DNA from: Hericium rajendrae
Lineage: Eukaryota > Basidiomycota > Agaricomycetes > Russulales > Hericiaceae
DNA: 64,000 nucleotides
Reading direction: 5' to 3'
Assembly (NCBI GenBank): GCA_033439255.1
Contig: JAVRDV010000018.1
Coordinates: 248,001 to 312,000, forward strand
A model generated the notes under the pieces. It saw only the letters and a list, made by a program, of their open reading frames with translations. It was not told the DNA's origin and ran no database searches. Below, in pieces: positions 19,870-60,017 of the stretch. Both the position numbers and the translations under genes were made by a program. Numbering within the stretch: position 1 is the first letter of the stretch; every line of letters starts with the position of its first letter.

Positions 19870-19914
19870 GTAAGCAAATAACGACTTATCTTTCTTGTTT
19901 TCGCACTAATTCAG
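19870..19914 (+). other. Predicted intron of IH copy 1
   Basis: Donor AG/GTAAGC, branch-like CACTAAT and acceptor TCAG, 45 nt. The acceptor abuts the hairpin that begins AGAGTATCGC. Six more copies of this arrangement exist in the window. The splicing prediction rests on sequence signals only. Confidence 0.65.
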
Positions 19915-19946
19915 AGAGTATCGCTCGTATTTCGGGCGATACTCTC
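19915..19946 (+). repeat. IH hairpin, copy 1
   Basis: AGAGTATCGCTCG pairs with CGGGCGATACTCTC around TATTT. It starts exactly at the predicted 3' splice site. Confidence 0.85.
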
Positions 19947-21339
19947 GATGTGCTTCGTCACTCGACCCTCCGCGACCCCTTCGCATCCTCCACGTCCCAC
20001 TGCATCCCCCGCGCCCCGTCCATGCTCGTCCGCACCTCGTGCACAGTCCTATACCCCGCGCGCGGCTCCAACACCCCCACGACACTTGCGCGCGACCTCA
20101 ACGACGCACAAGCCCCCGTCTGCGCTTTGTCAACGGCGTGTGCCCGTGGGCCACGTCATTGCCCGTGCCCTCGACGTCCTCGCAAGTGGGCGCCGTCGTG
20201 TCCCGTTGCCCTGGCAACGGGACTCGGATGTGTTCCCGTCGTGCTCGCCAGGCCTCAAGCACCTCGTCTGACTCCCTCCACGCTCCCGCTGTGTCATCAG
20301 TGCAGCGAACGGCCCAGCACCGAAGACCCACGCCTCGTGCGCTCGCCTTACTCGCCGCACGCTCGCCTTACTCGCCACACGCTTGCGCAATGCCGCGCCC
20401 TACGCCTCGGACACGCACGCAACGCCTCGAGACGCGCGCGCCGCCTCGACACGCGCGCGCAGCCCCCTCACGCGCACGGCGTCAACAACACGTGCACGCA
20501 TCCGGCAGCATGTGCACCAGCCCGCGTGTGGTTCTGGCTGCCGTGCATGGCCGTGCGCGGACGGCCCTAACAGACCTCCGTCCCCTCCACGCTGCGTCCA
20601 GACCCCCCTTCAGCGCCGCTTCTACGTGCCCAGCGCCGCGTCTGCATCCTCCGCGCCGTGCCTCCGTCCTCCGCGCCGTGCCTGCCGTTATCTTGCCCTA
20701 TGCGCCGCCTCCGCGCCCTCCGCACCACGCCGACGCCCTCCGTGCCGCATCTGCGCCCTCAATGCCGCGTCTGCGCCCTCAACGCCGCGTTTGGATCCTC
20801 AACGCCGCGTCTGCGTACTCCGCGCCGCGTCTGTGCCACCGCGCGGCCATCGGTGCGCTCCCCGCTGCCTGTGCACTCCCCGCCGCATCCCCGCTATCCC
20901 CGCCGCTTCCACGCTATCCCCGCCGCCTCCACGCTATCGCGCCACGTCCACGCTATCCGCGCCACGTCCACGCGCTCTGCGCCGTCCGGGCCGTGTCTGT
21001 GCCGTCCGGGTCGTGTCCGCGCCATTCGCGTCGTATCCGCGCCGTCTGCGCCGTGTCCGCACTCTCTCGCCCTCCGCTTCACCTCGCACGCATTGTCACC
21101 ATCTACGCGCGACCTAGCGCTAAGCGCACGGGCGTCGGCAGCCCCCTTTGAAGCAGCAGCAGGCAGCAGCTCGTGCGCGACCCGTCACGACCCGTCGCCA
21201 TGTGCATAACATCAGTGCGGCGTGCATGGCTGCCTAAGAATTTGTTTTTGGCATAAGTAGTTACTATAAGATTCCTTGTACCAACGATGATTTAGATATA
21301 ATAAAATTTAAATTTTTGACTTCTCATTATGGGGTCTAC

Positions 21340-21560
21340 CATACCTGATATAGGGCTGATAGAGTCCATAGCAAGGCTATGATGGTACATAGCTCTGATA
21401 GCAATGGCTTTTAGCTACATAGGCCTATATATCTTCTGCCTGCTGCTATGAAGGCTATCATAATGTGCATAGCTCTACATAGGTGCAAGGGTGGCTATAT
21501 AGATCTCATAGCACTATGCTAGGACACATACTTTAGTACTGAGCTATATAAATTTCTAAT
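21340..21560. repeat. CATAGC-word cluster, right edge of E1
   Basis: GATGGTACATAGCTCTGATA, GGCTATCATAATGTGCATAG and similar words, then CTAATTTTTCAGATG. Mirrors the cluster at 18570-18800. Confidence 0.6.
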
Positions 21561-22233
21561 TTTTCAGATGACATGCCACTATACATGCTGTCATATCATT
21601 TGTCTGACAGAAGCCCAATGTGAGGCAAGTTTTATATGCCATCAGTGCTATTCAACAATCAAAATGCACCCTCCCCAGTCTCATTCTCAATTTCCATCCA
21701 AGCTAGTGATGTCATTTGTGTGTGCATGCCCACAGCTATGCCAGTACACCAGCACCCACACATCCTCCCCTCGCACATGTGCCAGCCCATGTGCATACAC
21801 ATACTCAAGGCTGCCCCACCGGCATGCACATGCCCATGTCGATGCCACAAGTATGTCGCATGCAGCCTTTTGAATCCATGCCTTGTTTGTAGACTTTATA
21901 CACTTCATGGGTATGACAAGATATAGTGATAATGGGCATATGTGATTGGAGCTGTAAGTTAGTGTTGGCAGATGGCATATAGTATGTAGTTAGTTAGAGA
22001 TCACGACATATAGATTTGAACTTTGCAATATAATATGTTAACCAAAATAAAGTTTGGATAGCAGGTTACCCACAGGTCACTCACAGGTCAATGGGTTTGA
22101 GCACAACCTTGATCTGGATTTGTACAGGTCTCAGCCACCAGGTGATCTGGATCTACAAGTTAGATACCTGCAGGTCAATTTCATGGGCATACCCGTGTTG
22201 ACCTACAGGTGACTCTGACTCATGTCGAACCCT

Positions 22234-24044
22234 AAAGCATTTAAAAAAACACTATTTAATCTAATCTAATCATGAGTAGTTCAGCTCCTACCTCTGATAA
22301 CTCTACATTTTCTGCTATGTTATATATCTTAGTACCTTATTTTATATATAATCTGGTATGTAATACAGTACACACTTGTCATATCTTATTATACTCAGCT
22401 CGATATATGATATACACTATTATATATGCTTATATTATAGATACTTGTAATATCTACAATTATAGTAGTAGTCTAGTTGTATGTCTAATCAAACAAGATT
22501 CAAGATTGAATATATGATCAATGTCAAACATTGTATTGTTGAACAAAGCTAATGGCCAATCACATGATCAATAGCAGACCTTGTTCGGCCGCACAAGGTC
22601 TGATGGCTGTGCTTAGCTTATGCCAGCAGTAGTTGATGTTGCACTCTCTGCTCTCTCTTCTTTTCTTCAGATAGCTTTGAAGTCAGTATGATACTACCAG
22701 TAGTGCACACTAACTACAAGGCTTGGACACGCCCAGTCCCCATCTGCAGCGAGTTGCAGCTGAGGTGTCCAATGATGGTGTGGGGCCATCACCAACTTTC
22801 TGCTGATGATGTGGCATAGAGATCAGGCCATAGCTCTCTCAATACCACATCAATCAGAATGAGTTAAAGCTTGTTAGAATCAGATTTACAATAGCTCTAG
22901 AATAGTGCCACAAACAACAAAATAGCATGACAAAATGCTGACCTATTGGACTATATGTCTATGATGATGTGGCAGACTGTTTGCTTTATAGCTCTGCTGA
23001 TACTGCATCAATCATGATGTATGAGGGCTTGTTGAACTCAGATTTACAATAGCTTTCTAACAATATAGTGTACAACATCATAGCACTATTGGTTGTTGAG
23101 ATAGGAGACAATACTGTTTTGCTAATATAGCATATAAATCGAAGAATATCTCTGCTTACAGTGATCCCATTTTCATATTCTAAATTGGGTTGGAAAGATG
23201 TAATCCAAGGTATATGAACACAATTTACCGTTTGTCAATTGTTTGCTTTGTTGCAGAGCTATAAAGCAATCACTGTATACAGTGTATTGGCTCTCTAAGC
23301 GACTTATGCTTATGTAAGCGGGCACTAAGACCTTGTTCGGCTGCACAAGGTCTTGTAAGATCACATGACCGAGTCTCAGGACCCACTGCTACCGATAAAT
23401 TGCATTTTTTGCTCATTTTATCAATAAACAGTATGTACATTTGTTTGCTGTGTATCATTTTAGTGGCTGTATCTTTCTATAAGCAGTAAATTGTGTTGGA
23501 GACCAGCTTTCTGGTATATTTGGATGCATTTGAGAACAAGTGAATCGGTTGAGTACTGATTAAGTTAGCTGGAGTTCAAGCATTCTAGGGGGAAAATGCA
23601 GAAACAATTTCCATTCTGCGAGTTTTGTACCGATCCTAATGCCTAAGGTACCCTCAGAAAGCTATCAATAAGTAGATTCTGATGCATTTTAGAACGAGTA
23701 AATTGGTTGAGAATTGGCCTAGTTAGCTAGGGTTCAAGCATTTTAGAAGAGGAAAAAAAGAAATACTTTGCATTCTGTGAGTTCTTAACCGATTTGGATG
23801 CATGAAGTATGGTAGCAAAGCTATAAGCAAGTAGATTTAGACACATTTGAGAACAAGTAAATCGGTGAAGAATGGACTGAGTTAGCTCAAATTCAAGTGT
23901 TATAGAGGGGAAATGTAGAAATTCATTGCACTCTGTGACTTCTACACAGATCAGGATGTAAGAAATACTGTCAGAAAGTAATAAATGAGCAGATCCAGAT
24001 GCATTTGAGAACAGGTGAATTGGTTAAAAATTGATCAAGTTACA
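22234..24044. other. Repeat-derived DNA with two ACCTTGT hairpins, no gene seen
   Basis: Two related hairpins, GACCTTGT TCGGCYGC ACAAGGTC, stand at 22577-22603 and 23329-23356. They may be ends or internal parts of one 0.8-kb element, since ATCACATGA occurs next to both. Between 23480 and 24040, four loosely repeated blocks of about 130-170 bp share GCATTTGAGAACAAGTGAAT and GTTAGCTNGGGTTCAAGCAT-like phrases. No coding frame is convincing. Confidence 0.45.
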
Positions 24045-24208
24045 TTAAATCAAAAAAGTTCGGCCAGAGCTGGAGTTGAACCTGCAAACTCGTTAGATTG
24101 AAGATGTGTGATTATATAAGCCAACTGCCTAATGGGCATAGTCATTGTTTGCATGTCGTTTTCACTATGAAAAGGTGGTATAGAGTAAACGATTCTAAGG
24201 AATTGTAA
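24045..24208. mobile_element. Element T, right-end fragment (copy 3)
   Basis: Shares GAACCTGCAAACTCGT, TTATATAAGCCAACTGCC and the terminus AAACGATTCTAAGGAATTGT with the right end of copy 1. The left part is missing. The tRNA-like box B (GCAGGTTCAACTCC, minus strand) is best preserved here. Confidence 0.75.
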
Positions 24209-25179
24209 TAACAGAAAAATATCATAGACCCAATAATCTTATATCTTAAAAGTCATGATCATCAAAATTTGAAATATATTATATTTTTGAATACAATTTT
24301 ATTACAAAACATTACAGAGCTACAAAGATTACTACATAACTATAAAAGATAAGAGACTTATAATATCTACAAAAAGTGAAAATATAACAAAGAAAACAAG
24401 ACATTAGTATTAAAAGGTAACAAATGATACATAAATACTTACCAAGCCAATAAAAAAGTGAAAACCTAAAGACAACTTGAAAATATCAGTAAATATATAA
24501 AGCTTACCTAGTAGGACAAGAAATCTACTATAAGAAGTATGAACAATTAGTATTAGTATTAGTATAAGTTATGAGACGAAGAATTAAAGCCTTACCTTAA
24601 TAGAGACAGTGACAACGAGCAATAGACAGTGACAATGAGCAACAGACAGCAACGACGAAGGGAGCGATGACGATGAGTGAGCAAAGAACGACAACACAAG
24701 TGTTGACATGGCAAGGGATGATGGGAGGTAAAGAGCAAGAGGCAACGCACGTCGCGCGAGCCTTATATACGAATCCCGGGCGGAGCCGGGATTTGTGGTT
24801 GCCAGGCGCTTGCTGAGTGTCGCGTCAGAGACTGGGCACCAGACATTACTACGTTGATACTGCTGCTCAGAAATTCATGGTAAAGTAGATACATCGTGTT
24901 CTCATGTATTCTAATTTTGTGTATGATTTAGTACTGTAGTCTTTTTCTCTGATTTTATACGAGTTTATTTGATTTGCTGAAGCTCGAGCAATGGGGCTTC
25001 ACTCGTTCGGTGACTAAAGCACCGAACGCGCATCGAAGTTCAACTTATACCACCATCACTACCACCACTCCCCCTTCCTCATCTCCTTTCCTCTCCTCTC
25101 TCTTCCCTCTCCTCTCTCTTCTCTCTTTCTCATCAAACTGAAATCTGAAGGAGGGTGACAGGATGTCGAGGGCCCTCAG

Positions 25180-25223
25180 GTGAGTAAAAGAAAGTCTTAT
25201 TGTCTTCATTCATACTAACATAG
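25180..25223 (+). other. Predicted intron of IH copy 2
   Basis: Donor AG/GTGAGT, branch ACTAAC, acceptor ATAG, 44 nt. The acceptor abuts hairpin 25224-25252. Confidence 0.65.
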
Positions 25224-25252
25224 AGAGTATCGCTCGAACGAGCGATACTCTC
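25224..25252 (+). repeat. IH hairpin, copy 2
   Basis: AGAGTATCGCTCGA/ACGAGCGATACTCT is a near-perfect palindrome with 13-14-bp arms and almost no loop. Confidence 0.9.
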
Positions 25253-26479
25253 GACTTCTTTCCCACTCCCGTGCCTCTCCTTCCCTCTCGCCTCCCACCG
25301 CCGCCTCCTGCTCGTCGACCCACCCCTCGATAATGCCGTCAAGCTCCAGAAGCTAGCGCACTGTCTCCAACGACTGCAACTGCATGCACTGGTGCATGCA
25401 CACCACCGACGACACGTATGCGTGCCCGTCGCCCCACGCACGGGCTTCATCCCTCCCGCATGACCCCGCCGTCCCGCGAACGACACTGTTGCCTGGTGCA
25501 CAGGCCAGACACGCAGCGTGTGGTCACCCCATCTCATGCAGGGGCCAATGCATTGTGCGTGACCCCGCCGAGGTCCGTACGCATGGCCAGTGGATGGCCA
25601 TAGCCGCGCACGGATGCCAGCACGCACGATGTGTGCACGATCAGGGTGGTAATGCCAGCGCAGCAGGACATGGAATGTGGCATGCGCGTGGCCGGTGCAC
25701 CTCATGCATAGGCTTGCCGCATCGTGTACGAGCACGCAGCAGTACAGCAACTTGTGCACGCCCTATGCGCCTTGTGTGCTCTCCCTCTGCACCTCGCGTG
25801 CCCCTCTCATGCCTCGCGCTTCCGGCGCGCAGATCCTCCATGTCATGCTGCTACATTGCATATGGCCCCGTGCCTCATGCATAGAACCCGCTGCAGCCCA
25901 ACACTTCGCGCACACCCGCGGGCCTCGTGCACCCACCGCGTGCCTTGTGCTGCCCCACGAGTCTGGTGCCTGCCTCAAGCCTCGCACCTGCCCGCCACAT
26001 ATTGCACATCCCCAGCCCTCCCGCCTCTGGCGCGCAGGCTTATCACATCGCAGACATGCTCTGCCACGTCGCACATGCCTTGCATGCCCATCTCCCCTGC
26101 CTCACGCTTCGTGCACGGGTCCACCGCTGTCCACCCCCATCTCGCACCACCTTTGATGCCCCAAGCCTGGCCCCCATGCCTCTCGTGTGTGCCTTGCTGC
26201 CCCGAGCGCAGCGCCTCTAGCTGCCCATCGACGTCTCGCCGTGCCTGGCGCTCTCCCCGTGTGCTCTCCCCACGTGCACTCCTAGTGCACCTCGCGCACG
26301 ACTGTCGCATTGTGCATGATTGACTGCCGCGCCGCACCACGCCTCGTGCGTGTATGCACCTTGTTGGACCTTGCCACTTGTAGTGTACTTATTTGTAGTA
26401 GTAATCATATTAAATATAAATTTGAATTTTGCATATCTCGTACCTAATTACCTGGTTGACTTGACATAATACTAGTAGC

Positions 26480-26670
26480 ACTAATAGTAGCCATAGCTCA
26501 CCTTACTGAGTATGATAGCATATGATAGTGCTATATATCTCAAACTGCTGGCTATGGAAGCTATGATAACATCATATAACTGACACTAATAGCTATGGAA
26601 GCTATGAAAACTCTCATAGCTCTACATAGCTCTGATAGCTCAGTCATAGCACCCATAATCTAACCTGAAG
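26480..26670. repeat. CATAGCTATG-word cluster, right edge of E2
   Basis: GCTATGGAAGCTATGATAAC, CTCATAGCTCTACATAGCTC and GATAGCTCAGTCATAGCACC, followed by the terminus TTTTCTCAGATG. Confidence 0.65.
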
Positions 26671-26697
26671 CTATATAAAATTGAGTTTTCTCAGATG

Positions 26698-29820: not shown

Positions 29821-29824
29821 AGTA

Positions 29825-31505: not shown

Positions 31506-31587
31506 GATATTTAAAAAAATGCGAAAAATGGGAAAAAAAAAATTAGTAATGTGTAGGACCCCCCTTAGCTTCCTTCAGTGCTTTAAC

Positions 31588-32290: not shown

Positions 32291-32324
32291 TGGGAACTGT
32301 TTTGCTGCAGCAAAACAGTTCCCA
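32291..32324. repeat. IH end palindrome, copy 3 body end
   Basis: Arms GGGAACTGTTTTGCTG and CAGCAAAACAGTTCCC form a perfect palindrome. Further copies are at 38087-38119, 38430-38463 and 41383-41417. Confidence 0.9.
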
Positions 32325-33853
32325 CACACTACAGAATGCAATATGAGCACATAGGGGGTCAGTGTAGGCATGGAGAAGTTGGTGGGGGTGTGCAGGAGGT
32401 CGCAGGGGTGCGCAGGGGTCAGCATGGGTGCACAACATCAATATGGGCCCATGGGCACACAAGTCCATGCAGGTGCACACAAGTCCGCGCAGCACGAGTG
32501 AGGTGGCAAGGGCATGCTAGAGATGGCACGGGTGTTCTGGAGGCAGCAAGGGGGCGTGCGAGTCCATGTGGAGGCATAGCGAGTCAGTGGGGACACACGC
32601 GAATCCGCACAGATGTGTGCAAGTCTGCACTGGCATGCTGGAGTCCGTGCAGGTGCGCTGGAGGCTGCGCAGAGCATGGGAGGCAGTGAGAGAGGGTGCA
32701 GGAGGTGGCATGGGGCATGTTGGCATCGGTGAGGGGGCATGGGAGGTGGCACCAGTATGATCGAGTTGGCGGGGGTGCACAGGAGTCAGCACGGGCACAA
32801 GGGAGTGCCGGAGCATCAGCGGGTGTGCACGAGTCAGCAGGGGGCATGCACGAGTCAGCGCGGGGGCATGCACGAGTCAGCGCGGGGGTGCGAGAGGTGG
32901 CATGTGGGTGCAGAAGGTGGCGCAGGGGTCACTACAGGGTTGAAAGGTGGGGCATGAATGGCATGCACACTCACAAGGTGCTGGTTCCATGCACAAGGCA
33001 TGGTGAGCATGCAAACAGCATGGTGGCCATGCGTGCCGGCATCAGACTGTGGCAAATCTGTATGCGAGGTGCAGCAGAGCACGGCATGCATGTGCGAGGC
33101 ATTGAGCCCATGTGCAAGGTGCAGTGGGGCGCAGAGGCCATGCGCAATGTGCAGCAGGCATGCATGGGGTGACAGGTGCGTGCAAGGCATGGCAGACGTA
33201 CGTGAGGTGCAGTGGGCGTTGCAGGGCCTGAGGCTGCTGCGGGCTTGTGTGTGAGGCACGGTGGGCATAAGAGAGGTGCGATGAGCATGGGCAAGGTGTG
33301 GCGAATGTGAGCGAGGCGCGATGAGCGGGCGCGGGGTGCTGGGCTGCCACGGCCCAATGCGTGAGGTGCAACAGGTGTCTGCAAGGTAAGACGGGCATTG
33401 CAGGGTGTTGCAGCATTGTGGGGCATTGCAGTGTTGCAGGGCATCAGGCTCGTGAAGCATGGAGTTGTGGTGAGGCACGGTGGGTGTGTGTGAGGCACTG
33501 AGCCTGAGCATGACACAGCAGGCCTGAGCAATGAGGCACGAGGCATGACGTATGAGGCTCGCATGCAAAGTGTCAGCATGCCTGCACATGAGCACGCACA
33601 ATGTGCGTGTGTGTGTGTGCCAGCTGGCATACCCACGTGCTGCTGTGGCCATCTGCCAGCTGTGCATGTGCTGGCATGCACAGCATAATGGGGTTGCACG
33701 CAGCACCTGGGCCCGTGCATGAGACGGGGAGGCAGTGAGTAGCAGGCTGCCATGTGCATCGTGCCGCAGTATGCATGGTGGCAGAATCGGGGGTGGGTCA
33801 ATGGGGAAGAGGCAGCAGCGGGAGGTGAGTGGACAGGAGAGACCAACGAAGGT

Positions 33854-33882
33854 GAGAGTATTGCTCATTCGAGCAATACTCC
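33854..33882 (-). repeat. IH hairpin, copy 3
   Basis: GAGAGTATTGCTC pairs with GAGCAATACTCC. The CG pair of other copies is TG on one arm and CA on the other, so base pairing is kept. Confidence 0.85.
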
Positions 33883-33927
33883 CTATGTTAGCATGAAGAA
33901 GCAAGAGGAAAGACTTTTTTTACTCAC
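33883..33927 (-). other. Predicted intron of IH copy 3
   Basis: Minus strand: donor CAG/GTGAGT, branch GCTAAC, acceptor ATAG, 45 nt, abutting the hairpin. Confidence 0.65.
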
Positions 33928-33950
33928 CTGACGGGCCCTTGTCACCTTAC

Positions 33951-35433
33951 TTGGGGGAAGAGGGCCGATGCTCTGCACGGCAATACGATTCCTTTTGAAT
34001 TGTTCTAACTTTGTAGTGTTATTCTCACAGAATTAATAAGATAACAGAAAATTGAATATACTAGTATTGTAATGCTGCAAAGATCTCTATCTTCAAAGTA
34101 TATTGTTTTACACTTATCTCTTATTTTTAAACTTTGTTACCAGCAAAAGTTGAACTAATGACAAAATAATGGTCACGTGCAACAGCGAGCCCGGTCAGGC
34201 TCGCTGTTGCACGTGACTTCTCAAAAATTGTGTTTACATTTATGAAGTACATAAGTGTGACCTTTGAAAGTCTGTCAACTGTTGTATGTTGCCTAGATTG
34301 ATTTTATTTTTGCCTTCTAAGGGCCTGAATCAGTAAATTGGCTATATCTCTGTCAATTCTCCAGCTATAAACATCAACCCAAGTGTTTCTGAATAGTACT
34401 ATCAATGGCCATATTAACACAATTTTTACTGATTTTGTATGCTACTCAGTATGTGTCTATTCTCAGATGATTTGATGATTTGCCTCTAGACTTGACTGAT
34501 TTTTTCGATTTTTTTCTGCTTATAAATTGCTTATGTAATCCGCAGCACGGGCAAAATGACGTACTCCCGTCCCTCTCATGATGTCATGGGACAGGAGTAT
34601 GTCATTTTGCCCGTGCTGCGGATTATGTAAGACCTTGAAAATAGTCAAATAGGAGGTTTTGTGATAATTCGAGTGTACCTCCTTAAATACTGGAGATATC
34701 ATTGGTCCCTTGATTGCGTCAGAAAGATCTCTATTATACCTTTTCAACGACGCTAGGTACACTACAATTGGATGAGTCAATAAAAAGATATGGCCTCAAC
34801 AAGTTTGTTCCTACCTCTAATATCAACCCTTCAGTAATCGCTACCGCGTTTTCTCAATACGTATCCGATCGTCTTGTACAATATACCGTTGGAACGGTAC
34901 GAATCAGATCTTTCCAACGGTATCTTTAGCATGTAAATAGCACCACTCGTTGCGCCGCTACGATGTAATCACTATGATCTTCTCCTCAAAGGTATCTTTT
35001 GAAGTGATTTGCTCATATCTCAGTCATTTCTGAACCTATTCTCATAAAAAAAAATGTTCTGACTAGGTAAAATCTGCCTTTATCATATTATCATAAACCA
35101 CACTAACTTACATCAATGACAAGGTGCAGAATATCCTATTAAATATCTGTTATCTCAACAAGTTTGCACTTTCTTATACTAAAATCTTTCAGTTCTAATA
35201 AGACTAGCATTAATTTACATATGCATATAGTTTAACACTAATCGAATTTGATTTAGTAGACTGATATCTCTCAGAAACATTTAAAATCACAAGAATGACA
35301 ATTGCCAGAATTGAACCTACAACCTTACTTTAAGATGTGAGAAATTATTACTATAAAAGGCATTACATTGGCTGGGTGTCATCTTTTTTGAGTTGAAAAG
35401 CGGGTTAGAGTAAACGATTCTAAGGAATCGTAA
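33951..35433. mobile_element. Element T copy 2
   Basis: Closely similar to 8375-9800 over most of its length, and ends with the same AAACGATTCTAAGGAATCGT. Flanked by TTAC on both sides (33947-33950 and 35434-35437), a possible 4-bp duplication. It lies in the leader of IH copy 3. Hairpin 1 is at 34172-34217. Hairpin 2 (34536-34625) has its loop inverted relative to copy 1. It retains CpGs in hairpin 1 that are TG or CA in copy 1. Confidence 0.82.
34536..34625. repeat. Element T hairpin 2, copy 2 (loop orientation 2)
   Basis: The arms are the same as in copy 1, in the same orientation. The loop (34574-34587) reads TCTCATGATGTCAT, the reverse complement of the loop in copy 1 (ATGACATCATGAG). 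Confidence 0.9.
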
Positions 35434-36699: not shown

Positions 36700-36769
36700 T
36701 GTCATGAATCGCCCATTGGTCTTCTTCATTCCCTTTGTTCCCTATATGGACACTCCCTTGTTATATCCC

Positions 36770-36900
36770 CTTGTTCCCTGTTAGGATATCCCTTGTTCCC
36801 CTTTAGGATATCCCTTGTTCCCCTTTGGGACATCCCTTGTTCCCCTTCCCCTTGTTCTCCTTTCAGGATATCCCTTGTTCCCCTTTGGGCTATCCTTCCA
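36770..36900 (+). repeat. Tandem TTCCCCTTTAGGATATCCC units in the TRIM LTR
   Basis: About five units of 21-23 bp (e.g. CTTGTTCCCCTTTAGGATAT) stand upstream of the TATA box. The second LTR has fewer. Repeats in U3 often bear regulatory sites; that role is inferred. Confidence 0.65.
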
Positions 36901-37081
36901 GTATATATAGGGCTACCTTCCTGACTGGCTTCCTCAGTTTGTCCACTTGACTCTCCAGTCCCATTGTACCCTAGACATTCTCAGCCTGTCTCTACTCTCT
37001 ATGACATCCTCTGCTCTTTGATCCTTGATCTCTTGGGGTGACTTGGATGGCTTCACTGTTCCCCTGAACCCAGTCTTGACA

Positions 37082-37363: not shown

Positions 37364-38086
37364 TGTCATGAATCACCCATTGGTCTTCTTCATTCCCTTT
37401 GTTCCCTATATGGACACTCCCTTGTTATGTCCCCTTGTTCCCCTTTAGGATATCCCTTGTTCCCCTTTGAGACATCTCTTGTTCCCCTTCCCCTTGTTCC
37501 CCTTTCAGGATATCCCTTGTTCCCCTTTGGGCTATCCTTCCAGTATATATAGGGCTACCTTTCTGACTGGCTTCCTCAGTTTGTCCACTTGACTCTCCAG
37601 TCCCATTGTACCCTAGACATTCTCAGCCTGTCTCTACTCTCTATGACATCCTCTGCTCTTTGATCCTTGATCCCTTGGGGTGACTTGGATGGCTTCACTG
37701 TTCCCCTGAACCCAGTCTTGACACCTCCCGCGTGTCCTTGCTGTCTCCTCTGTGCCTGCATCATCTCGCACGCATGCCCACATCATCTCGCGCACATGCC
37801 CACATCATCTCACATGCATGCCCGCATTGCCTCGCACGCATGCATGCTATCTCCGCCGTGCCCCTGCCATCTCCTCCGTCTCCACACTGCCACGTGCATG
37901 TCCGTGCTGTCTCCTCCACAGCGGTACCACCTCTCCCCCATGCTGCCACCTCCTGTACATTCGCACTGCCACCTTCCACGCTGCTTTGCAGATGCTGATG
38001 CTACCTTGTTCACACCCGCACCCAGTCCCTCCTGCCTGTGCCAAGTCATGCATGCTCTCACCAACTCCCCTACAGATGCAAAATGT

Positions 38087-38119
38087 GAGAACTGTTTTGC
38101 TGCAGCAAAACAGTTCCCA
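38087..38119. repeat. IH end palindrome (end of headless body)
   Basis: GAGAACTGTTTTGCTG and CAGCAAAACAGTTCCC, nearly perfect. Confidence 0.88.
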
Positions 38120-38429
38120 TGCTCAGATACTTCGAAGGAGACATTAGAATCTTGTACATTCATCTGGAAAAATGGGTTTTTGGTTGATAGCCAGGGTCTT
38201 GCTATAGTAACCGCTGCCAGCTACAAATAGAAGACTTCTGAACTATGATTGCTGATGATTAGATATTGATGGAAGCATCTTGGTATGTAATATGCGACCC
38301 AGCTACAGTACCATCTATAGCAGTCATATTTCTCAGGGAGAAATCAAGTCATATATTCAAAATAAAGCTACCAATTATATTATATTATGACTCTACTTTA
38401 CAAGGTAATAGTATGTCTCCTTCTGAGCA
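38120..38429. other. 310-bp unique spacer between two end palindromes
   Basis: AT-rich. It is flanked by inverted sequence: AGATACTTCGAAGGAGACAT next to the left palindrome and ATAGTATGTCTCCTTCTGAG next to the right one. The spacer may thus be an inverted-repeat element of its own, or the sequence into which both IH units inserted. Confidence 0.45.
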
Positions 38430-38463
38430 TGGGAACTGTCTTGCTGCAGCAAAACAGTTCCCA
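38430..38463. repeat. IH end palindrome, copy 4 body end
   Basis: GGGAACTGTCTTGCTG and CAGCAAAACAGTTCCC; one mismatch. Confidence 0.88.
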
Positions 38464-39579
38464 CATTTTGCATCCGTGGGGGAGTGGGTGAGAGTACAAG
38501 CGGCGGCAAGCATGTGCGACTCCTCAGCACAGGCAGGAGGGACTGGGCATGGGCATGCACGACTCAGTGCAGGTGCGAGCAAGGCAGCAGGGGGGCGGGC
38601 AAGGCGTTGTGGGCACGGGGGAGGCAGCACAGGCATGCGTGAGATGGCATGGGCACGGGGGAGACGGCGCAGGCGTGAGAGAGGCTGCGCGAAAGTGCGC
38701 GAGGTGGCGTCAGCGTGTGCAAGGCGGCACGAATGCGCGGGAGGCGGTATGGACACACAGGATGTGGCGCGAACATGCGGGAGGTGGCAGCGGCACGGGG
38801 GAGATGGCACGCACGCGGGGGAGACGGCGCGAGCAGAAGGGAGGTGATATGGGCACGGGGGAGGCGGCAGGGGCATGCATGAGAAGGTGGGAGATGGCGC
38901 AGGTGCGCAGGAGATGGCACCGGCGCGCGGGAGACGGCGCGGATGTGCGAGGAAGATGACGCGGGTGCGCAGGAGACAGGAGGGGTGCACAGGAGGCGGC
39001 AGAGGACCAGAGAGACAGAGTTGACGTGCACGAGGCGGCGGTGGCATGGGGGAGGCGGCGGCGGCATGGAGGAGGCAGCACCGGTGTGGGGGAGACGACA
39101 GGTGCGCAGGAGATGGCAAGGGCATGTGGAAAGCGACGCGGGCGCGCGAAGGCGATGCAGCATGTCTGAGACGGTGAGAGGCACGCGGGAGGCGGCAGGG
39201 GGTGCGCGGGAGGCGGCATGGACACACGGGAGACAGCGCGGGTGCGCACGAGGCGATGCAGGTGCGGGGAAAATGGCGCCGGCGCGAAGGAGGCGGGAGG
39301 GGTGCACGGGAGGCAGCAGGGGCACGGGGAAGACGGCAGGGGCACGGGGAAGACGGCGCCGATGCGCACGAGACGGCGGTGGTGTGAGGGAGACAGCACC
39401 AGCGTGGAGAAGACGACGCGGGCATGCAGGAGACGATGCGGGTGCGCGGGAGACGGGGGCATCCGCCACTCGACGGCGACACGTGCGGGGGGTCGGCAAT
39501 GCGAAAGGGTCAGCGAAGGGGGGCGCGTGTCGGTGGAGGCGTGTGCAAGGGTGACGTGCTGGATGCGCAGAGTAAAAAC

Positions 39580-39614
39580 GAGAGTATCGCCCAAATTCGA
39601 ACAGGCGATACTCT
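39580..39614 (-). repeat. IH hairpin, copy 4
   Basis: GAGAGTATCGCC pairs with GGCGATACTCTC around AAATTCGAACA. Confidence 0.85.
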
Positions 39615-39657
39615 CTGAATTAGTGGTGAACAAGGTCAATAAGATATATTCACTCAC
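39615..39657 (-). other. Predicted intron of IH copy 4
   Basis: Minus strand: donor GTGAGT, branch CACTAAT, acceptor TCAG, 43 nt, abutting the hairpin. Confidence 0.65.
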
Positions 39658-39773
39658 CGTGTAGCCATCTGCAGCTCCTCCCTGTATTGAGTCCAGCTCG
39701 GAATACCTGAGAAAAATGTGTTAGTTGTCCATTGATAGAGGGAAACGTACCTTGCAAGTATGAAAAAACGGCT

Positions 39774-39809
39774 GTGGGACGTGTTTGGCTGCAGCCAAAC
39801 ATTTCCCAC
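39774..39809. repeat. IH end palindrome, shared by copies 4 and 5
   Basis: GGGACGTGTTTGGCTG and CAGCCAAACATTTCCC. It stands between the divergent copies. Confidence 0.85.
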
Positions 39810-39876
39810 GCGCCCCCCACATTTTTTTTGTTCAAAGTCGACGCGCGAGCTGCGCGTCATGGCCCACCGCGCACCA

Positions 39877-39914
39877 TTTCGTTTGAATGACCATATATGG
39901 TCATTCAAATGAAA
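39877..39914. repeat. CCATATATGG leader palindrome, IH copy 5
   Basis: TTTCGTTTGAATGACCATA and TATGGTCATTCAAATGAAA form an almost perfect 38-bp palindrome. The centre resembles a CArG-like CCATATATGG box; whether a MADS-type factor binds it is untested. Confidence 0.8.
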
Positions 39915-40072
39915 CGGGCCGCGCGGCTCCGTGCGCTCGACTTGCACATGACGACTTTTACCTGCCACGTCGTCTTCCTTCCACCCACCCCTTCCTTCCC
40001 CTTCCTTACGGTGGAATTTTTTCTGTAAGTGTCTCTTGATCTTTTTTGATTCTTGTGGGGCTGGGAATAAAG

Positions 40073-40117
40073 GTGAGTAGCCACAGTTTCTTGTGTAGCT
40101 TCGTTGTACTAATCAAG
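40073..40117 (+). other. Predicted intron of IH copy 5
   Basis: Donor AAG/GTGAGT, branch ACTAAT, acceptor CAAG, 45 nt, abutting the hairpin. Confidence 0.65.
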
Positions 40118-40151
40118 AGAGTATCGCTCGACGTTGTCGAGCGATACTCTC
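40118..40151 (+). repeat. IH hairpin, copy 5
   Basis: AGAGTATCGCTCGAC and GTCGAGCGATACTCT pair fully around GTT. Confidence 0.9.
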
Positions 40152-41382
40152 ATTTTGTACACTCCGCACGCCCCTGCCGACCAGCGCATGCCCTCATTGA
40201 CTCCCGTTCCCCCACTTCGCCTCGCGCTTGCCAACGCCGACTCCCGCACGGCTTCGTCGCCTCCTGCCAACTCCCGCGTGCCTGTGCCGCCTTGCGCATG
40301 CCCGCACCATTTCTCGCGGGCCCCCATCCACTCTCCCACGTCCTCACCCTCCCGTGCCCTCACCTACTCCCCTGTGCCTGCGCCATCTTGCTTGTGCACG
40401 CCCATATTGCCTCGCGCACGCCCGCGGCCGTGCCGGCTCGCAATGCCCGCGCTGACTCGTGCCTGCTCGTGTGCCCTCTCGCACGCATACGTGCCCGTGC
40501 CCCTGTGCTGACTCCTGCGCGACACCCGTGCCAACTCGCTCGCGACGCCCATGCCGACTCGCACCCACCTGCATGGCCTCTCGCATGCCCGCACGGCCGC
40601 CCGCACGCCTGTGTGCCCTCTCGCACTCCCGCACCGCACGGCCTCCCACATGACGGCGCCACCTCGTGCACGCTCGCACCTGTGCCCGTGCCGCCTCACG
40701 CCCGTGCGACGCCCGTGCCAACTCCCTCGCGCTTGCGCCGCTTTGCCTGCGTCCGCACTGACTCGCGCCCGTGCACCCTCTCGCATACCCGTGCCCGCGC
40801 GCCCGTGTGCCTGCGCCGAGTCCTGTGTGATGCCCGTGCTGACTCACTTGCACCCGCGCCACCTGACCGTGCCCGTGCGCCCTCTCGCACACCCGCGTCC
40901 ACGCTGACTCACTCGCGCCCGCCCCGACTCGCTTGCGCCCGCCCCGACTCACTCGCTCGCGCCCGCGCCACCTGACCACGCCCGCGCCACCTGACCACGC
41001 CCGCACGCCCTCTCGCACACCCGCGCCCATGCGGCCTCCCACGCGACGGTGCGGCCTCGCTCGCGCGCCACCTCCCGCGCGACGGTGCCGCCTTGCTCAC
41101 GACGCCTGTCCCACCTTGCTCGCTCCAGTGCAGACTCGTGCCCACCCGCACGGCCTCTCGCGTGCCACGCCTCCCGTGTGCCTGTGCCGCCTCGTTCACG
41201 CCCCCACTGACTCCCGCATGCCCACGCCAACTCCCACCGCGCACCTGCGTCGACCTGCCCATGCCTGTCCCGATGCCATCGCACCAATGCCGATTCCCGT
41301 GCACCCCTGCCACCTACACACCGGCACCAACCCAAGTGTGCCCTCTGCCACCTCCCGCATGGCCCCGCATGGATGGAATGTG

Positions 41383-41417
41383 TGGGAACTGTTTTGCTGC
41401 AGCAAAACATTTCCCAC
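41383..41417. repeat. IH end palindrome, copy 5 body end
   Basis: GGGAACTGTTTTGCTG and CAGCAAAACATTTCCC, one mismatch. Confidence 0.88.
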
Positions 41418-41589
41418 GAGGCATTAAGTGCTGTAGGTGCAGAAGATTATGGACTGGGAGATGTACTACTAGTGTATAAGATGTAATTAGCCAGAAATAT
41501 AGTATTTTCTGTGGTATACTGCCAGGGATCTGATATAAGAGATTACCATGGATGATAACAAACTATACATAACTATAGGTGGAATGAAG

Positions 41590-42120
41590 CTACCAAAGGG
41601 TATAAACTCTGTTGTAGGTGCACTGTAGGTACTGTATCTTTAAGCAGCTATGGTAGATTTGGCCATCTACAGACCTGCTACAGACTGCTACAGACTGCTA
41701 TAGATCAGCTACAGGTAGCAAATATAGGGACCCACTTGTCACCAAGAGCTACACAATCTATGGAACCTTTTTCAGCTACTATAGATTAATATTGCTACTA
41801 TAGATCCCTGTAGAATCTATGCCTTTTCCAGATGTTAGATTATATTTGTAACTACGTGTAGGTCCAATGAGAATTATTGTAAACATCTATAGTGAAATCA
41901 AAGGATAATTTGGGCATTTAAGCATGCTTTTGAGAGTGCAGAATAGCTCAGAGTGAACATTTTATTTTTGTGATATACCAGTGCTACAGGAAGTACAGTA
42001 GCTGTACTTCTGGCTTTGTAAGATTGCCGGGTCTCCGGATATCAAACTGGTGGCTTACAGTAGCCAAGGCTCGGTTACTACAGCCAAGGCTTGGCTACCG
42101 TAGCCATACCTCAGCTATCA
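41590..42120. repeat. CTACAG/CTGTAG-word cluster, right edge of E3
   Basis: CAGACTGCTACAGACTGCTA, CAGCTACTATAGATTAAT, GGCTACCGTAGCC and similar words up to the terminus TTTTTCCTGATG. Confidence 0.65.
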
Positions 42121-43163: not shown

Positions 43164-43165
43164 TA

Positions 43166-49796: not shown

Positions 49797-52137
49797 ATGA
49801 ATCCTGGAATCGACTCGCCATCACCTAAGAGAAAAAGATCAACCCAATCCTCGCCTGCAAATGTGAAGCGTCGTGCAAAAGGGGCAAAAGAAAGCAAAGG
49901 AACCACGGGCGGTACGTTGCTTTCTTTTTTGTATAAGCTCCTGGTTGATTTCTTTTTGAATCACAGATGTGACGACCGAAGGGCGGGGTGGTTCAACGCC
50001 GCCGCCCCTTTGCCCATCCTCTCTTAGCGCGGCTAGTTTGTTGGCTGAAGCTGACAAGACTACGCAAGAGTGGTTTCGCAGGCCCAGCACTAGGCATCAG
50101 TATGCTAATTATGTCAAAGCAGGGAAGCTGTGGCTTGAGTTGTGGATAGCCGGGGCGGATGATGAATCTGCCTCTGAAGGTGCCGCAAGCCTGGAGCCAC
50201 CTCCGGAGTATTCACCTGAGGATCGTCTCCGCTACCAAGGTGCCTTCGACTCGATCACCGAGTATACGCCACAGGCCCTTCAGTTTTTTACTGCCTGGAA
50301 ATGTGGCTTTCAAGGCAAGGGGTTCTCCACCGCAGAGGGAATCAGAGCTGCGTTCAAAGGCTACTTCGAGCAGTACGTTCTAACCTTATAATACTTATTT
50401 CATATGATTTCCTACGCAGATATCTAGAGCCCTAGGATGCAGTGGCAACAACACGTGGCATTGGGATGCATCCAAAGGGCAAGCCGAAGGAAATCCCGTC
50501 TTCGAACTATCGTATGCTCAGTATTACAAGTCTTTGCAAAAGCGAGAGAACCGAACAGTGGAGGTCGTCCATGCAAGAGCGATGTTCCCGGAAGATCTAG
50601 ATGAGCTATTCGCCTATTTAGATGACTCTAGCAACGACTCGAGCGCAGGCGAAGCAAAATTTTCCCCTGAGAAAATTCTGTTCTTCAAAGCGTTCTGCTC
50701 CCTATGCTTTCGGCTGTGGACCAGGTACGCGGGAGTTCTTCAGATATGATGTGCCAAATACTGATATAGAAATAACAGGTTCGAAGACCTAGCAATGATC
50801 AAGATGGAGAACCTTGCTCGCAAGGAGAAGCATGGCACTCCATTTTACGAGGTTGCCCTTGTCTTCACTAAAACCCGGCAGGATATCAACGACCGTGAGT
50901 GTGGTTTTTTATTTAACTTGTTTTCTTTCCGATTTACTATACGTGTTTCGAAAAATATATTCAACTAGGTCGCACTTTCAAATTCCCTCCTTTGCCGGAA
51001 TACCCTTCGATTGATTGCTACAGTCATCTCCAAGCTTGGCTGGTTTGTTACGAAAAAATGGCAGGGCGTAAACTTGGTCCTGACGATCCAGTGTTTCCGG
51101 GATGGACTAGAGATGGTATCGCAGTGGGTACACATGCGAAGTATCAGTTCTTCTCCACGCTTTTGGACGCTGTTATCAAAGCAAGCCGGTTCAATGACAC
51201 CCGCTTAGGTCGGAGTTCTACTCACTGCTTCCGACGAGCAGCGGCGCAGTGGCATCTAATGTGCATGCTCTGGAGTCTCAAGTCCGTTCGATACTGGGCG
51301 GGTTGGTCAACAAGTGTTGACGATGTACGTCCAGAGATTGAACCTTTCAACTGCGCATCGCCCTTGATTTTACTAATTCATATCCTGTAGAGTTCAACCC
51401 TTATGCGATATCTTCTGGATTCGTTAGGACAGTATGAGCAAGACTATGGCGATATGTGGATGCCGCCGCCTGCTGGTCGCCGCCAAGAGCGATCCATAAC
51501 AAACGATGGTGATGAGTTGAGAAGGCTCAGGGGTAAAGTTGATGACCTAAGCAAACGGATGGAAAATGGGCATGGTAAGCACATTTCGCAATCTTGCAAG
51601 GGTATGAATCTGACATGCATAGATACTCAAGGATCTAGCAGCCCGAACGCATCCGAATCAAGGTGCTATCCTGTATCTACACCATCCCAAGGATCTAGCG
51701 AACCGCGCTCGGTAACTGAGCCTGCGAGCCCCACGACCATACATCCTGAACCTATTATGAGCCCAGTCGAAGTTAGCCCAGCCGCACCTCCAGACAACGC
51801 GGTCCGCCTGATTATCCCGATCATGCGCAATCTTGACGATGTGATCAAATTTTGGGAAGAGGGCGACAGTCAACTCGGGTTGATGGTACCCCTCAGCCAA
51901 TGGAAGCCTAAATACTACAGCCAAGCGCCGCAGAATCAGAAAGTTAAATGGAGTAATGCTCATGCGTTATACCAGGAGTGGATTCGCCTTGAAAAGGACG
52001 ACGAGCGCTTCGAGAAGGAGTATCCCGGGTTGCGGCAAGAGTATACACACTTGCTGAAGAGCGTTCGAAAGAGGAGACAAGATATCGGGTTGGCAAAGGT
52101 GCGACGGAAAAAGGGGTCGACGAGCCAGGTGGACTGA
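49797..52137 (+). CDS. Crypton-type tyrosine recombinase, seven exons, apparently intact
   Basis: Exons 49797-49911, 49967-50372, 50428-50724, 50779-50894, 50969-51324, 51391-51574 and 51623-52137 give 1989 nt, 662 residues. Donors are GTACGT, GTACGC, GTGAGT or GTAAGC; acceptors end in AG. The last intron is 48 nt with no in-frame stop and may be retained. The N-terminus is basic (SPSPKRKRSTQ). A SAM-like core-binding domain spans about residues 50-230. The catalytic domain has WTR (Arg273), LVFTKTRQ, STHCFRR (His397, Arg400), WAGWS (Trp421-Trp424) and the nucleophile LMRYLLD (Tyr437). A GCR1_C-like DNA-binding domain follows at about 553-640 (LIIPIMRNLDDVIKFWEEG, QWKPKYYS). YR plus GCR1_C is the Crypton arrangement: such enzymes excise and integrate circular DNA without a transposase. 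Element ends were not found. Confidence 0.88.
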
Positions 52138-54290: not shown

Positions 54291-54291
54291 T

Positions 54292-55632: not shown

Positions 55633-55728
55633 GTGGGAGAAATGAGTGTGACGATAGCGAAGGCGCTGAATAAATAGAAAAAGATCGAGGGGCGAATGAA
55701 TAAACTGTTGTTCAAATTGTTAGTACTC

Positions 55729-56609: not shown

Positions 56610-56795
56610 ATTCAAAATATTCAACCCTTGGCCATAACCAATCATATCACGCACGTTTGTCACAGATTCCAACACGGAATGAAGACCCTTGGGATCTTCG
56701 CGCTCCGGACGTCCGAGCGCATGTTCGGATCGTGCTGACTCAGATATCTGAGAGCCCGCTCGCCTTCGATGGCCGTGCAGCAACGCTTGCCCACC

Positions 56796-57748: not shown

Positions 57749-58185
57749 ATTCAGTGTAAAGCAGCTGTTGCTCCAGACTCCTTCTTGTGCACTCATTTGA
57801 GCCTATGGTGCACAATTATTAGGAAAATGAGATATGAGATATCTGAGTTTTCCTGTACACTTTTGATGTTAATCAAAAATTATGGTGCTTAGGCTTGAAG
57901 AGTGACTGGCACATTTTTTCCTCATGTAATATCTTCTCATTCCTTGTCAGAGCATTCTCAACAGTGCACATCACTTGAACATATTAGATAATGAGAAGAT
58001 CCCAAGTACCATCTGCCATCTCACATGAGTGCATAATGTGATATTCATGTACATATTTTTAGCAATTACATCATTGCCCACAGAGCATCTAACCTAAGAA
58101 GATTATCACACAATGAGAACATTGATGAATATTGTGACAAAATAATTGTAAGGTCAGGAGTCTTCACTATCATCAAGAACCCTCT
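57749..58185. other. AT-rich DNA downstream of the REX4-like gene
   Basis: No gene or repeat recognised. CATCTCACATGAGTGCATAA-like phrases are not repeated nearby. Confidence 0.35.
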
Positions 58186-58450
58186 CAACATTCTGAGCTG
58201 TCTGATTTTGTCTGAGCTGTCTGAGATTTGTCTGAAATCAGACACTCAGAACATCAGAAAATGTGTCTGAAATCAGACTTTAAGTTCTGTTATCAGATTG
58301 AATATCTGACTTCAGACAAGTTTCTGATTTCAGACACACTTTCTGATATCATAAGTATCTGATTTCATAAACTTTTCTGATTTCAGAAAATTTCCTACTT
58401 TCAAACTTTTTTTCTGATTGCAGACCAGTCAAACAACTATCAGATTAGAA
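58186..58450. repeat. TCTGAAATCAGA-word cluster
   Basis: More than ten words such as TGTCTGAAATCAGACA, TTTCTGATTTCAGACACA and ATCTGATTTCATAA. TCTGAAATCAGA is a perfect palindrome. Like the CATAGCTATG and CTGTAGC clusters, it is a tiled palindrome region with variable spacing. Confidence 0.75.
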
Positions 58451-59340
58451 TTTAAGATTAGACTAGAAATTCAAGTGAGACATTTCCCTGTAATACAGTA
58501 GTACTGCATACATACAGTTATCTACACTGGCTATGTACTACTATACCAACATCTCTCACATCTGTAGGCACAAGAGTTTATTACTCACACTATACAGCAT
58601 GCACAGCCTGTATGCAACATGACATGAATACACATGACATGCAAGGCTCATGTGAAAGATATCAGGATGCGATGGCCTATGCACTATGCAAGGGCCATGC
58701 AGGGGTGGACAGAGCCATGTACATGTCACACTGGCTTGCTGCTCATCTACTGACATGGCTGTCCATAGTGCACAGCTATTCTCATGTCATGCATACATGG
58801 ACACCAGCATGCATGCACTCATGGTACCACATGCACACATCCAGGGCCTTATGCAAGACAGCATGGTCACATACAATGTGGTGGGTCTCAGCCAGAGGCA
58901 ACAAGTCCAGGCACATAGGTGCAGAGGCCATACGGATGCCATGTGCCTAGCACAGAGGGCACAAAGGGTGCAATGGGCATGGGCATAGGGTGTGCAGCTA
59001 GCACTGGGATGCTGCACAATGCCACACAGAGGGTGCACGAGGGCACGCAGATGACATGCAGAGGGCATGCGAAAGATGTGCAAAGGACATGCATGGCATG
59101 GGCGGCCCATGCGTGATGGGTGGATATTTGTTCCTGGGTCATGTGCAGCTGTGTGGAGTCATCTAGAGTCATGAGCAGTGGTGCACACCCGTGCGAGGCC
59201 ATGCACGAGAAGGTGGAGGCATGCGAGGATTGCGCTGGGCCTGAGGGGGAGATGAAAGAAGAGGCCAATTAGGCGCAGGGTATGTAGCACAGAGGAGAAA
59301 GCGAGAGGGGCACCAAGCACAGGAGATGCAACGGAAAGAG
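58451..59340. other. CpG-decayed low-complexity body (IH copy 6 body), no gene
   Basis: From about 58600 the sequence is CATG/TGCA-rich (GCATGCGAAAGATGTGCAAA, GCATGGGCATAGGGTGTGC). It leads into the IH hairpin at 59358, as the body of a minus-strand IH copy would. Frames on both strands have no motifs. Confidence 0.45.
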
Positions 59341-59357
59341 GCAGAACGTTCAATGGG

Positions 59358-59390
59358 GAGTACTGCTCAGTTCGATAACGAGCAGTACTC
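59358..59390 (-). repeat. IH hairpin, copy 6
   Basis: GAGTACTGCTC pairs with GAGCAGTACTC around AGTTCGATAAC. Compared with copies 1, 2, 4 and 5 (TATCGC/GCGATA), both arms changed together to TACTGC/GCAGTA. Confidence 0.85.
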
Positions 59391-59436
59391 TGGCATTAGC
59401 ACGATAGACATGAACATAACAATAACATATACTTAC
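59390..59436 (-). other. Predicted intron of IH copy 6
   Basis: Minus strand: donor AAG/GTAAGT, branch GCTAAT, acceptor CCAG, 47 nt, abutting the hairpin. Confidence 0.6.
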
Positions 59437-59503
59437 CTTGGGGTCCTCTCAAACTTGGAAAAGGACATGGAAGACATGGGAGACATGGGAGACAGAGGAC
59501 ATA

Positions 59504-59533
59504 GAGTACTGTTCGATAATGAGCAGTACTCCC
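59504..59533 (-). repeat. IH hairpin, copy 7
   Basis: GAGTACTGTTCG...AATGAGCAGTACTC; TTCGATAATGA forms the loop. Confidence 0.8.
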
Positions 59534-60017
59534 AGAATCAGTATCATAGACAATATAATTGTATTTTGACTCACCTTTGCTTTTAGAAAGCCTCACGAGC
59601 CTTCGGTTCATTCCTTCAGCCTTCACTTCTGTGCAGGAGATGACAGGACCGTGCGCGCTCATCCGAGGTTGTGTGCATCTGTTCGGGGTCATACGGATGG
59701 GTGCAGAGGTTGTGTTGGGCATGAGGCAGGGGAGAGGCAGAGCCGGATCATGCACCAGGACAGGGGACAGGGAAGGCAAGGGATAGGAGAGGGAAGGCGA
59801 GCCCATTCAGTACTAATTCCTGTATGGGAATGGTGAGCCAAACTGACACCGTCACATTCTAGATTGGTGAGCTCACGTTGGCCAACGTCCTAGTGTAGTC
59901 ATAGTAGTATGGCCAGAATGACAATCTTGATTATCATACCGCGTTGCCCGAGAATGTTCGCCTATGCCCCTATACCTGACAGCATCAGGAAAAACCGGAG
60001 TTTCACTAAATCAGATG

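Follow-up and report, generated by a model that had tools for sequence, protein, structure and literature searches.

A 64,000-nt stretch of the Hericium rajendrae genome (C18:248001-312000, called the window below) contains seven copies of an intron-like segment joined to a hairpin, and these belong to a family with hundreds of copies in the assembly (46.8 Mb, 19 contigs). In our analysis, this hairpin intron is probably the conserved heart of non-autonomous DNA transposons of the PlavakaB type, with the hairpin lying between the branch point of the intron and its 3' splice site (the acceptor). An earlier note on the same DNA had described the seven copies, and all of them were found at its coordinates and on its strands. 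The note had missed that the copies are the inner parts of larger elements that end in inverted repeats, and that sites 4 and 5 share one element. Its view that the intron interiors diverge more than the splice signals was borne out, and it was probably also right, as far as can be judged from sequence, that the dispersed repeat is transcribed. The donor GTRAG is present in all seven segments and the branch motif CTAAY in six, site 7 having CTGAT. An AG stands directly 5' of the hairpin at sites 1 to 5, where the triplets are CAG, TAG, TAG, CAG, and AAG, respectively. This does not hold for site 6, where the AG overlaps the stem (CCAG), or for site 7, which has no AG before the stem. The G of this supposed acceptor is usually base 1 of the 14-bp stem (GAGAGTATCGCTCG).

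With one mismatch at most, the 14-nt stem arm matches the 46.8-Mb genome 349 times in forward and 360 times in reverse orientation, compared to 4 and 3 for a reversed control. As both arms of one hairpin can match, this corresponds to about 350 hairpins and not to the sum of the two strands. Linkage of the hairpin to splice signals was read in 20 regions chosen by the stem arm only, which cover 21 of the roughly 69 places that a manual grouping of the first 100 listed matches gave. Twenty-one of the 22 hairpins in these regions have a donor (GTRAG or a GC variant) 38 to 53 nt upstream together with a branch-like motif, for which CTNAN or ACTTAT was accepted in this count; only L039:6932 departs from this pattern. 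The claim that splice signals and hairpin stay linked is thus supported beyond the window, and among the 22 hairpins read this one alone is an unlinked copy of the kind that the earlier note had named as a counterargument. Rfam gave no matches in the window at gathering scores and one match below the gathering score in L025, and a scan of viral contigs for one exact form of the hairpin, with a 5-nt loop, gave none.

The hairpin is held at a fixed place. From 48 oriented units, 2 that repeat other loci were dropped, and in the remaining 46, which still include close copies, the distance from branch motif to stem is 3 nt in 44 and 2 nt in 2. Loop lengths range between 2 and 12 nt. The 21 distinct arm pairs have 294 stem positions, of which 251 are Watson-Crick pairs, 23 are G-T, and 20 are mismatched (12 of them A-C). 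Compensated changes are present, such as C-G to T-A at pair 9 in 4 of the 21, and a 14-bp stem was predicted in all 11 folds made. Both the pairing of the stem and its letters are kept.

Two subfamilies were set apart by hand. Subfamily 2, to which element D of the window belongs, has two head-to-head units, each with a hairpin intron, a C-rich body of about 1.1 to 1.3 kb, and a 32-nt 3' palindrome. Subfamily 1 has one unit with a hairpin intron, and in some copies the opposite-strand unit has candidate introns of the ordinary type; many units of this subfamily are preceded by a promoter palindrome like GTTCGGTGGCTGAAGCACCGAAC. These palindromes recur throughout the genome: the promoter palindrome (GTTCGGTG..CACCGAAC) has 102 forward and 92 reverse matches and the 3' palindrome (GGGAACTG..CAGTTCCC) has 76 forward matches, with 0 for the control in both cases. 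Fifteen loci were fetched by the 3' palindrome, and a hairpin unit lies within 3 kb of it in 12 (L010 to L021) and in none of the other three (L009, L022, and L023). The central and 3' palindromes of subfamily 2 (39774-39809 and 41384-41415 in the window) share the core GTTT(T/G)GCTGCAGC(A/C)AAAC.

The elements are mobile. Five copies (L025, L028, L034, L037, and L039) are 94 to 97% identical across about 2.7 kb and end abruptly, and a search with the ends of L025 gave, among 40 places scored out of 227 candidates, 11 left/right pairs that are 2.6 to 2.7 kb apart and one that is 5.7 kb apart. Ends were searched in 35 units, and 19 of them have an end pair that agrees at 11 or more of 16 positions; in this number element D and L040 are each counted twice, and the right flank of L008 lies beyond the locus. 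Identical 2-bp flanks were found in 14 of 22 end pairs with at least 11 of 16 matching bases versus 6 of 95 poorer pairs, and the latter value is the chance expectation of 1 in 16. Counted by hand per element, 12 of 16 readable elements have a well-matched pair with identical flanks (L024, L028, L030, L031, L033, L034, L035, L037, L038, L043, and elements A and D of the window), and L025, L040, L042, and the element of site 3 have no such pair. When the pair is chosen by end match alone, duplicated flanks are present in 10 elements of 16, with a tie at L024 and with the outer pair chosen for L034 lacking them. This outer pair of L034 (-1631 and +2177 from the hairpin) matches at 15 of 16 bases and has unequal flanks; it is perhaps a nested second element. 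An empty site was found as well: L019 and L020 form a head-to-head composite nested in another copy, and the joined flanks minus one AA match an unoccupied relative with 1 difference in 78. The ends and duplications enclose elements of 2.6 to 3.7 kb.

Filed by its ends, the family fits the non-autonomous PlavakaB type (CACTA-like), because the ends and the 2-bp duplications match those of published PlavakaB elements, for which a 2025 study of fungal DNA transposons gives the ends 5'-CATCA..TGATG-3' and duplications of 2 or 3 bp (PMC12730594). These ends are strictly present only in part of the family. The five close copies have the termini CATCAGA..TCTGATG, with one left end reading CATCAAA, and many other copies have CATCTG..CAGATG. 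At least 132 Plavaka matches are present in the genome (123 of 166 candidates scored), and none of those scored lies in the window or in the L025 copy; members of the family can therefore only be non-autonomous, and the element ends suggest that transposase may be supplied in trans. A protein search with a piece of Plavaka transposase from this genome gave, among the best 120 of 1769 matches, a best full-length relative with 54% identity, and the named relatives belong to genera of Agaricomycetes. None of eight Plavaka loci of about 4 kb each holds the hairpin, and the points where similarity starts in these loci yielded no element ends. One of the eight, L048, has a family-like end (CATCTGAGAAATATG) that points outward and lies 1.4 kb past its Plavaka match. 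On C18, a Plavaka match close to an end of the family was considered as a possible autonomous element and rejected, as the sequence there is an ordinary hairpin element. We also rejected a Helitron (5'-TC..CTRR-3', no target duplication), for which the first ends seen, 5' TC and 3' CTGA, had spoken: the elements have 2-bp duplications and inverted-repeat ends, and one subfamily ends in CAGA.

The remaining question is where the intron ends. On balance, the first YAG past the hairpin looks like its end, so that the hairpin most likely lies inside an intron of about 170 to 200 nt, between the branch point and the acceptor. This reading is based on an AG that stands too close to the branch motif, on the exclusion of AG after the hairpin, and on the return of YAG at a similar distance. 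The first AG follows the branch motif by 2 nt in 43 of 46 units and by 3, 4, and 6 nt in the other three. It is known that scanning takes the first AG but that AGs within 12 to 15 nt of the branch point can be bypassed (PMC1431707). Among 24 candidate introns on the partner strand, the first AG stands at 10 to 24 nt in 16, at 34 to 134 nt in 4, and at 3 to 7 nt in 4. One of these near AGs, in L007, is a single change, and the homologous L029 and L033 keep the AG at 23 nt. The seven introns of two EF-1alpha-family genes, read by eye, are roughly 50 to 57 nt long, and the first AG stands about 10 nt or more past the branch in six of them. The seventh has an AG right after a branch-like CTTAAT, which may not be its true branch.

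The exclusion of AG was measured in a set of 36 units (12 of the 48 oriented units dropped), split by hand into 24 of subfamily 1, which include the less certain sites 3 and 6, L011, and L041, and 12 of subfamily 2. The first 90 nt past the hairpin in the 24 subfamily-1 units contain 4 AG and 55 GA, with observed/expected ratios of 0.12 and 1.71, respectively. Farther downstream, the ratio for AG is 0.62 (90 to 180 nt), 0.69 (200 to 500 nt), and 0.74 (500 to 800 nt), and it is 0.92 in a control, the pyrimidine-rich promoter stretch of 21 of the 24 units. When the zone was shuffled in 21 of the 24 units, 27.5 +- 4.6 AG were expected versus the 4 observed; the promoter control gave 18.7 +- 3.8 versus 17. 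The median pairwise identity within the zone of these 21 units is 46%, and shared descent alone is therefore a poor reason for the exclusion. Related copies are not independent, and no probability is attached to it. The first YAG appears 91 to 126 nt past the hairpin in 19 of the 24 units (at 7, 60, 148, 167, and 324 nt in the others); 18 of these 19 are CAG, and at this point the share of purines climbs from 0.20-0.26 to about 0.4. Of the 12 subfamily-2 units, 4 have their first AG 21 to 33 nt past the hairpin, both units of element D among them, and the other 8 have theirs at 69 to 531 nt.

Several observations weigh against this placement of the acceptor and, more generally, against the family as we describe it. 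The calibration with partner-strand introns is weak, as these were found by motif and 4 of the 24 have an AG at 3 to 7 nt; when AGs nearer than 8 nt are ignored, 19 have theirs at 10 to 24 nt and 5 are still at 34 to 134 nt. In the zone past the hairpin TA is depleted too (0.24, compared to 0.38 to 0.64 elsewhere), so that the depletion of AG is the strongest but not the only one. The base before the first AG past the hairpin is C in 12 of 21 units and T, A, and G in 3 each, a share of C no different from that in the rest of the body (0.53), so that no preference for YAG is visible at this AG. In subfamily 2 the position of the acceptor is not conserved, and the observed/expected ratio of AG is 0.19 at 0 to 90 nt and still 0.37 at 200 to 500 nt, so that AG stays low for 500 nt. 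The excess of G-T over A-C pairs in the stem (23 versus 12) is no more than a weak hint of selection at the RNA level, and the stem sequence is conserved beyond its pairing, for which a role in looping out alone gives no need. An autonomous copy with the ends of the family was not found, and full autonomous ends were not among the sequences compared. Transcription and splicing are themselves read from the sequence, for the earlier splice model as much as for ours. Finally, an acceptor about 100 nt past the hairpin is a long way off for a fungus: fission yeast already needs helper factors once branch point and acceptor are 21 nt or more apart (PMC9508853). Given this long reach in subfamily 1, a slow or blocked second splicing step is a serious rival.

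The conservation of the stem letters would be explained if the hairpin acted as a DNA palindrome, bound by a protein of the transposon or the host, and if the intron signals beside it were a relic. The same elements carry the other conserved palindromes described above, which makes such a role conceivable. We nevertheless consider it unlikely, as the fixed spacing of 3 nt between branch motif and stem and an AG exclusion that is strand specific and one sided both point to RNA.

It is also possible, with a likelihood that we rate as low, that the spliceosome carries out only its first step on these transcripts. The donor would be cut and the lariat formed at CTAAY, the hairpin and the AG-free stretch would prevent the second step, and the transcript would be discarded or exon 1 set free as a finished 3' end. 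In fission yeast, telomerase RNA undergoes only the first spliceosomal step in this way. The strong donor and branch signals, the lack of a YAG preference at the first AG, and the distance of this AG from the hairpin (median 101 nt for subfamily 1; 69 to 531 nt for 8 of the 12 subfamily-2 units), which is beyond the usual reach in yeast, all agree with such a module. Against it stand the return of YAG at a similar distance in 19 of 24 units together with the rise in purines, as at the start of an exon, and the CAG that follows the hairpin after 21 to 33 nt in 4 of the 12 subfamily-2 units.

The splice model of the earlier note, a 43- to 47-nt intron with the AG before the hairpin as its acceptor and the hairpin as the start of exon 2, is probably wrong, and we give it little chance of being right. 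The length of the segment is near that of the EF-1alpha-family introns, an AG stands 2 nt past the branch motif in nearly all units, and one of the seven EF-1alpha-family introns shows an AG right after its branch-like motif. Two nucleotides is, however, far below the spacing in the other six of these introns and in the partner-strand candidates, where 20 of 24 show no AG closer than 10 nt. Moreover, the triplet is AAG in several subfamilies, L038 lacks an AG ahead of the stem, the stem itself begins with the G of the supposed acceptor, and the model leaves 90 AG-poor nucleotides after the hairpin unexplained.

The C-rich body behind the intron has long open frames, which at site 4 run in each of the three phases of a single strand, and the intron could be the ordinary 5' intron of a family of protein-coding genes. 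We dropped this reading as very unlikely. The open frames follow from the scarcity of A, the variable sites of the five close copies are spread evenly over the codon positions (37/34/30), the indels measure 1, 2, 16, 16, 19, and 20 nt, and none of six long frames from the bodies in the window matches Pfam at an E value of 0.01. The body thus looks noncoding and shows a 20-nt period, with a z score of 20 in subfamily 1 and 40 in subfamily 2. Of its 101 variable sites in the five close copies, 100 are transitions and 94 are at CpG, and this decay in the L025 group suggests that the elements are methylated at CpG. An introner, in which the intron itself would be mobile, is hardly credible and was also dropped: hundreds of similar introns in one genome are known from such elements in some fungi (PMC4457414 and PMC9860276), but here the readable ends and target duplications enclose an element of 2.6 to 3.7 kb and not the intron.

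If the hairpin indeed lies between branch point and acceptor, the element would consist of paired, divergent, intron-bearing, and apparently noncoding transcription units, driven by two divergent promoters, with the hairpin intron in one or both. The intron would read, in order, donor, about 45 nt, CTAAY, 3 nt, the 14-bp hairpin, an AG-free pyrimidine tract, and YAG. CTAAY would serve as the branch point, the stem would hide three AGs that otherwise follow the branch point at once, and with the hairpin looped out the spliceosome would use the free YAG downstream, about 20 to 35 nt past the hairpin in some copies and about 100 nt past it in most of subfamily 1. Exon 1 would in this way be spliced onto the C-rich, 20-nt-periodic RNA body. 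A further and rather doubtful possibility is that the family has turned a very distant acceptor, gated by the stem, into its best conserved part: the stem would delay or block the second splicing step and give a measured mix of released exon 1, lariat intermediate, and spliced RNA for the element's own regulation, and the CpG-rich, 20-nt-periodic body, as RNA or DNA, may be a sink for methylation or silencing factors; gate and sink would be independent steps. In other fungi, some PlavakaB elements encode 5-methylcytosine dioxygenases (PMC12730594).

Non-autonomous CACTA-like transposons, AG exclusion zones, and stems placed between the branch point and the acceptor are each known. The family unites them in hundreds of dispersed copies in a single fungal genome. 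PlavakaB elements of Agaricomycotina, as described in PMC12730594, share with the family the CATC..GATG ends and the 2-bp target duplications, and Plavaka transposase matches are abundant in this genome. Unlike them, the elements described here hold no recognized transposase or TET/JBP gene, start with CATCTG and not CATCAG in many copies, and have, along with several palindromes, two divergent intron-bearing units, a hairpin intron, and a C-rich body with a 20-nt period. Introns of Saccharomyces have been reported to carry stems between branch point and acceptor (PMC12350175), and the predicted acceptor places our hairpin likewise. In our family, in contrast, the stem keeps a set distance of 3 nt from the branch motif, takes in the nearest AGs, and occurs in hundreds of copies, and about 100 nt remain to the predicted acceptor in subfamily 1. 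Introns with distant branch points (PMC1431707) resemble ours in the AG-free stretch from branch to acceptor and in the bypass of AGs beside the branch, but those described there concern human exons and no mobile family. Introners (PMC9860276) also give many similar introns per genome, and some bear inverted repeats and target duplications, whereas our intron forms only an internal piece of a larger transposon. We found no description of such a hairpin-intron transposon family among the open-licence papers listed for Plavaka with hairpin, the stem letters, non-autonomous Plavaka, and CACTA intron noncoding transcripts in fungi. The family is in effect a natural mutation series on how a stem beside the branch point steers the choice of acceptor, as the spacing from branch to stem is constant at 3 nt and loops, tract, and acceptor distance vary. 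It could allow an in vivo test of the reach of the fungal spliceosome and of why a transposon without proteins keeps an intron.

The features of the family in the window are listed in the table. Site 6 is an old copy, with an observed/expected ratio of CpG of 0.23 behind the intron. Sites 6 and 7 together (59358-59574) look as if exon, intron, and hairpin had been duplicated in tandem within this old copy, and there may be a 17-nt exon between the two sites.

Table. Hairpin introns and associated features of the family in the window (positions count from the first nucleotide of the window; introns and acceptors are predictions).
Feature	Position	Strand	Details
Element A, holds site 1	18549..21570	+	Non-autonomous DNA transposon; ends CATCAGAAAAAT / reverse complement CATCTGAAAAAT; target duplication AC
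Site 1, predicted whole intron, 177 nt	19870..20046	+	Donor 19870, branch motif 19906-19910, first YAG ends 20046; putative acceptor
Site 1, hairpin (stem core and loop)	19916..19944	+	
Site 2, promoter palindrome upstream	25005..25027	+	
Site 2, predicted whole intron, 170 nt to first YAG	25180..25349	+	Stem core 25225-25250; AAG 6 nt earlier
Site 2, possible 3' end of element	26697	+	
Site 3, predicted whole intron, 181 nt	33747..33927	-	Stem core 33856-33881
Element D, sites 4 and 5 as divergent head-to-head units	38161..41834	.	11-bp identical ends CATCTGGAAAA / TTTTCCAGATG; target duplication TT
Site 4, predicted whole intron, 99 nt	39559..39657	-	Branch, hairpin (stem core 39582-39613), T-rich tract, CAG; putative acceptor
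Element D, central palindrome	39774..39809	.	GTTTGGCTGCAGCCAAAC core
Site 5, predicted whole intron, 112 nt	40073..40184	+	Stem core 40119-40149, CAG; putative acceptor
Site 5, body	40185..41383	+	C-rich, A-poor, 20-nt periodicity
3' palindrome, end of site 5 body	41384..41415	.	1 mismatch from GGGAACTGTTTTGCTGCAGCAAAACAGTTCCC
3' palindrome, relative behind site 3	32292..32323		
3' palindrome, relative just outside element D	38087..38118		
3' palindrome, relative behind site 4	38431..38462		
Site 6, predicted whole intron, 196 nt	59241..59436	-	Stem core 59358-59390; 115 nt AG-free, then CTCCCCCTCAG
Site 7, degenerate copy directly upstream of site 6	59504..59574	-	Branch CTGAT, no AG before stem

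The window also contains other repeats. A probable Ty3-type retroelement was read by eye from its frames at 4235-12912, and a self-comparison gave matching direct repeats at its two ends (4235-4642 and 12490-12912) that are 91% identical. A 1.4-kb repeat is present twice (8372-9776 and 33948-35347, 89% identical); the first copy lies inside this retroelement, and the second, which begins about 20 nt ahead of the site 3 donor, may have cut the site 3 unit off from its promoter. Duplicated tandem arrays of CCCTTGTTCCCCTTTAGGA-like units, 92% identical, lie at 36700-37081 and 37364-37723. At 49960-52137 there are frames that resemble, by eye, the tyrosine recombinase of a Crypton-type element, and a long tandem array of 43- to 44-bp units with a TGGTTGGCCAAC core occupies 62668-63955.

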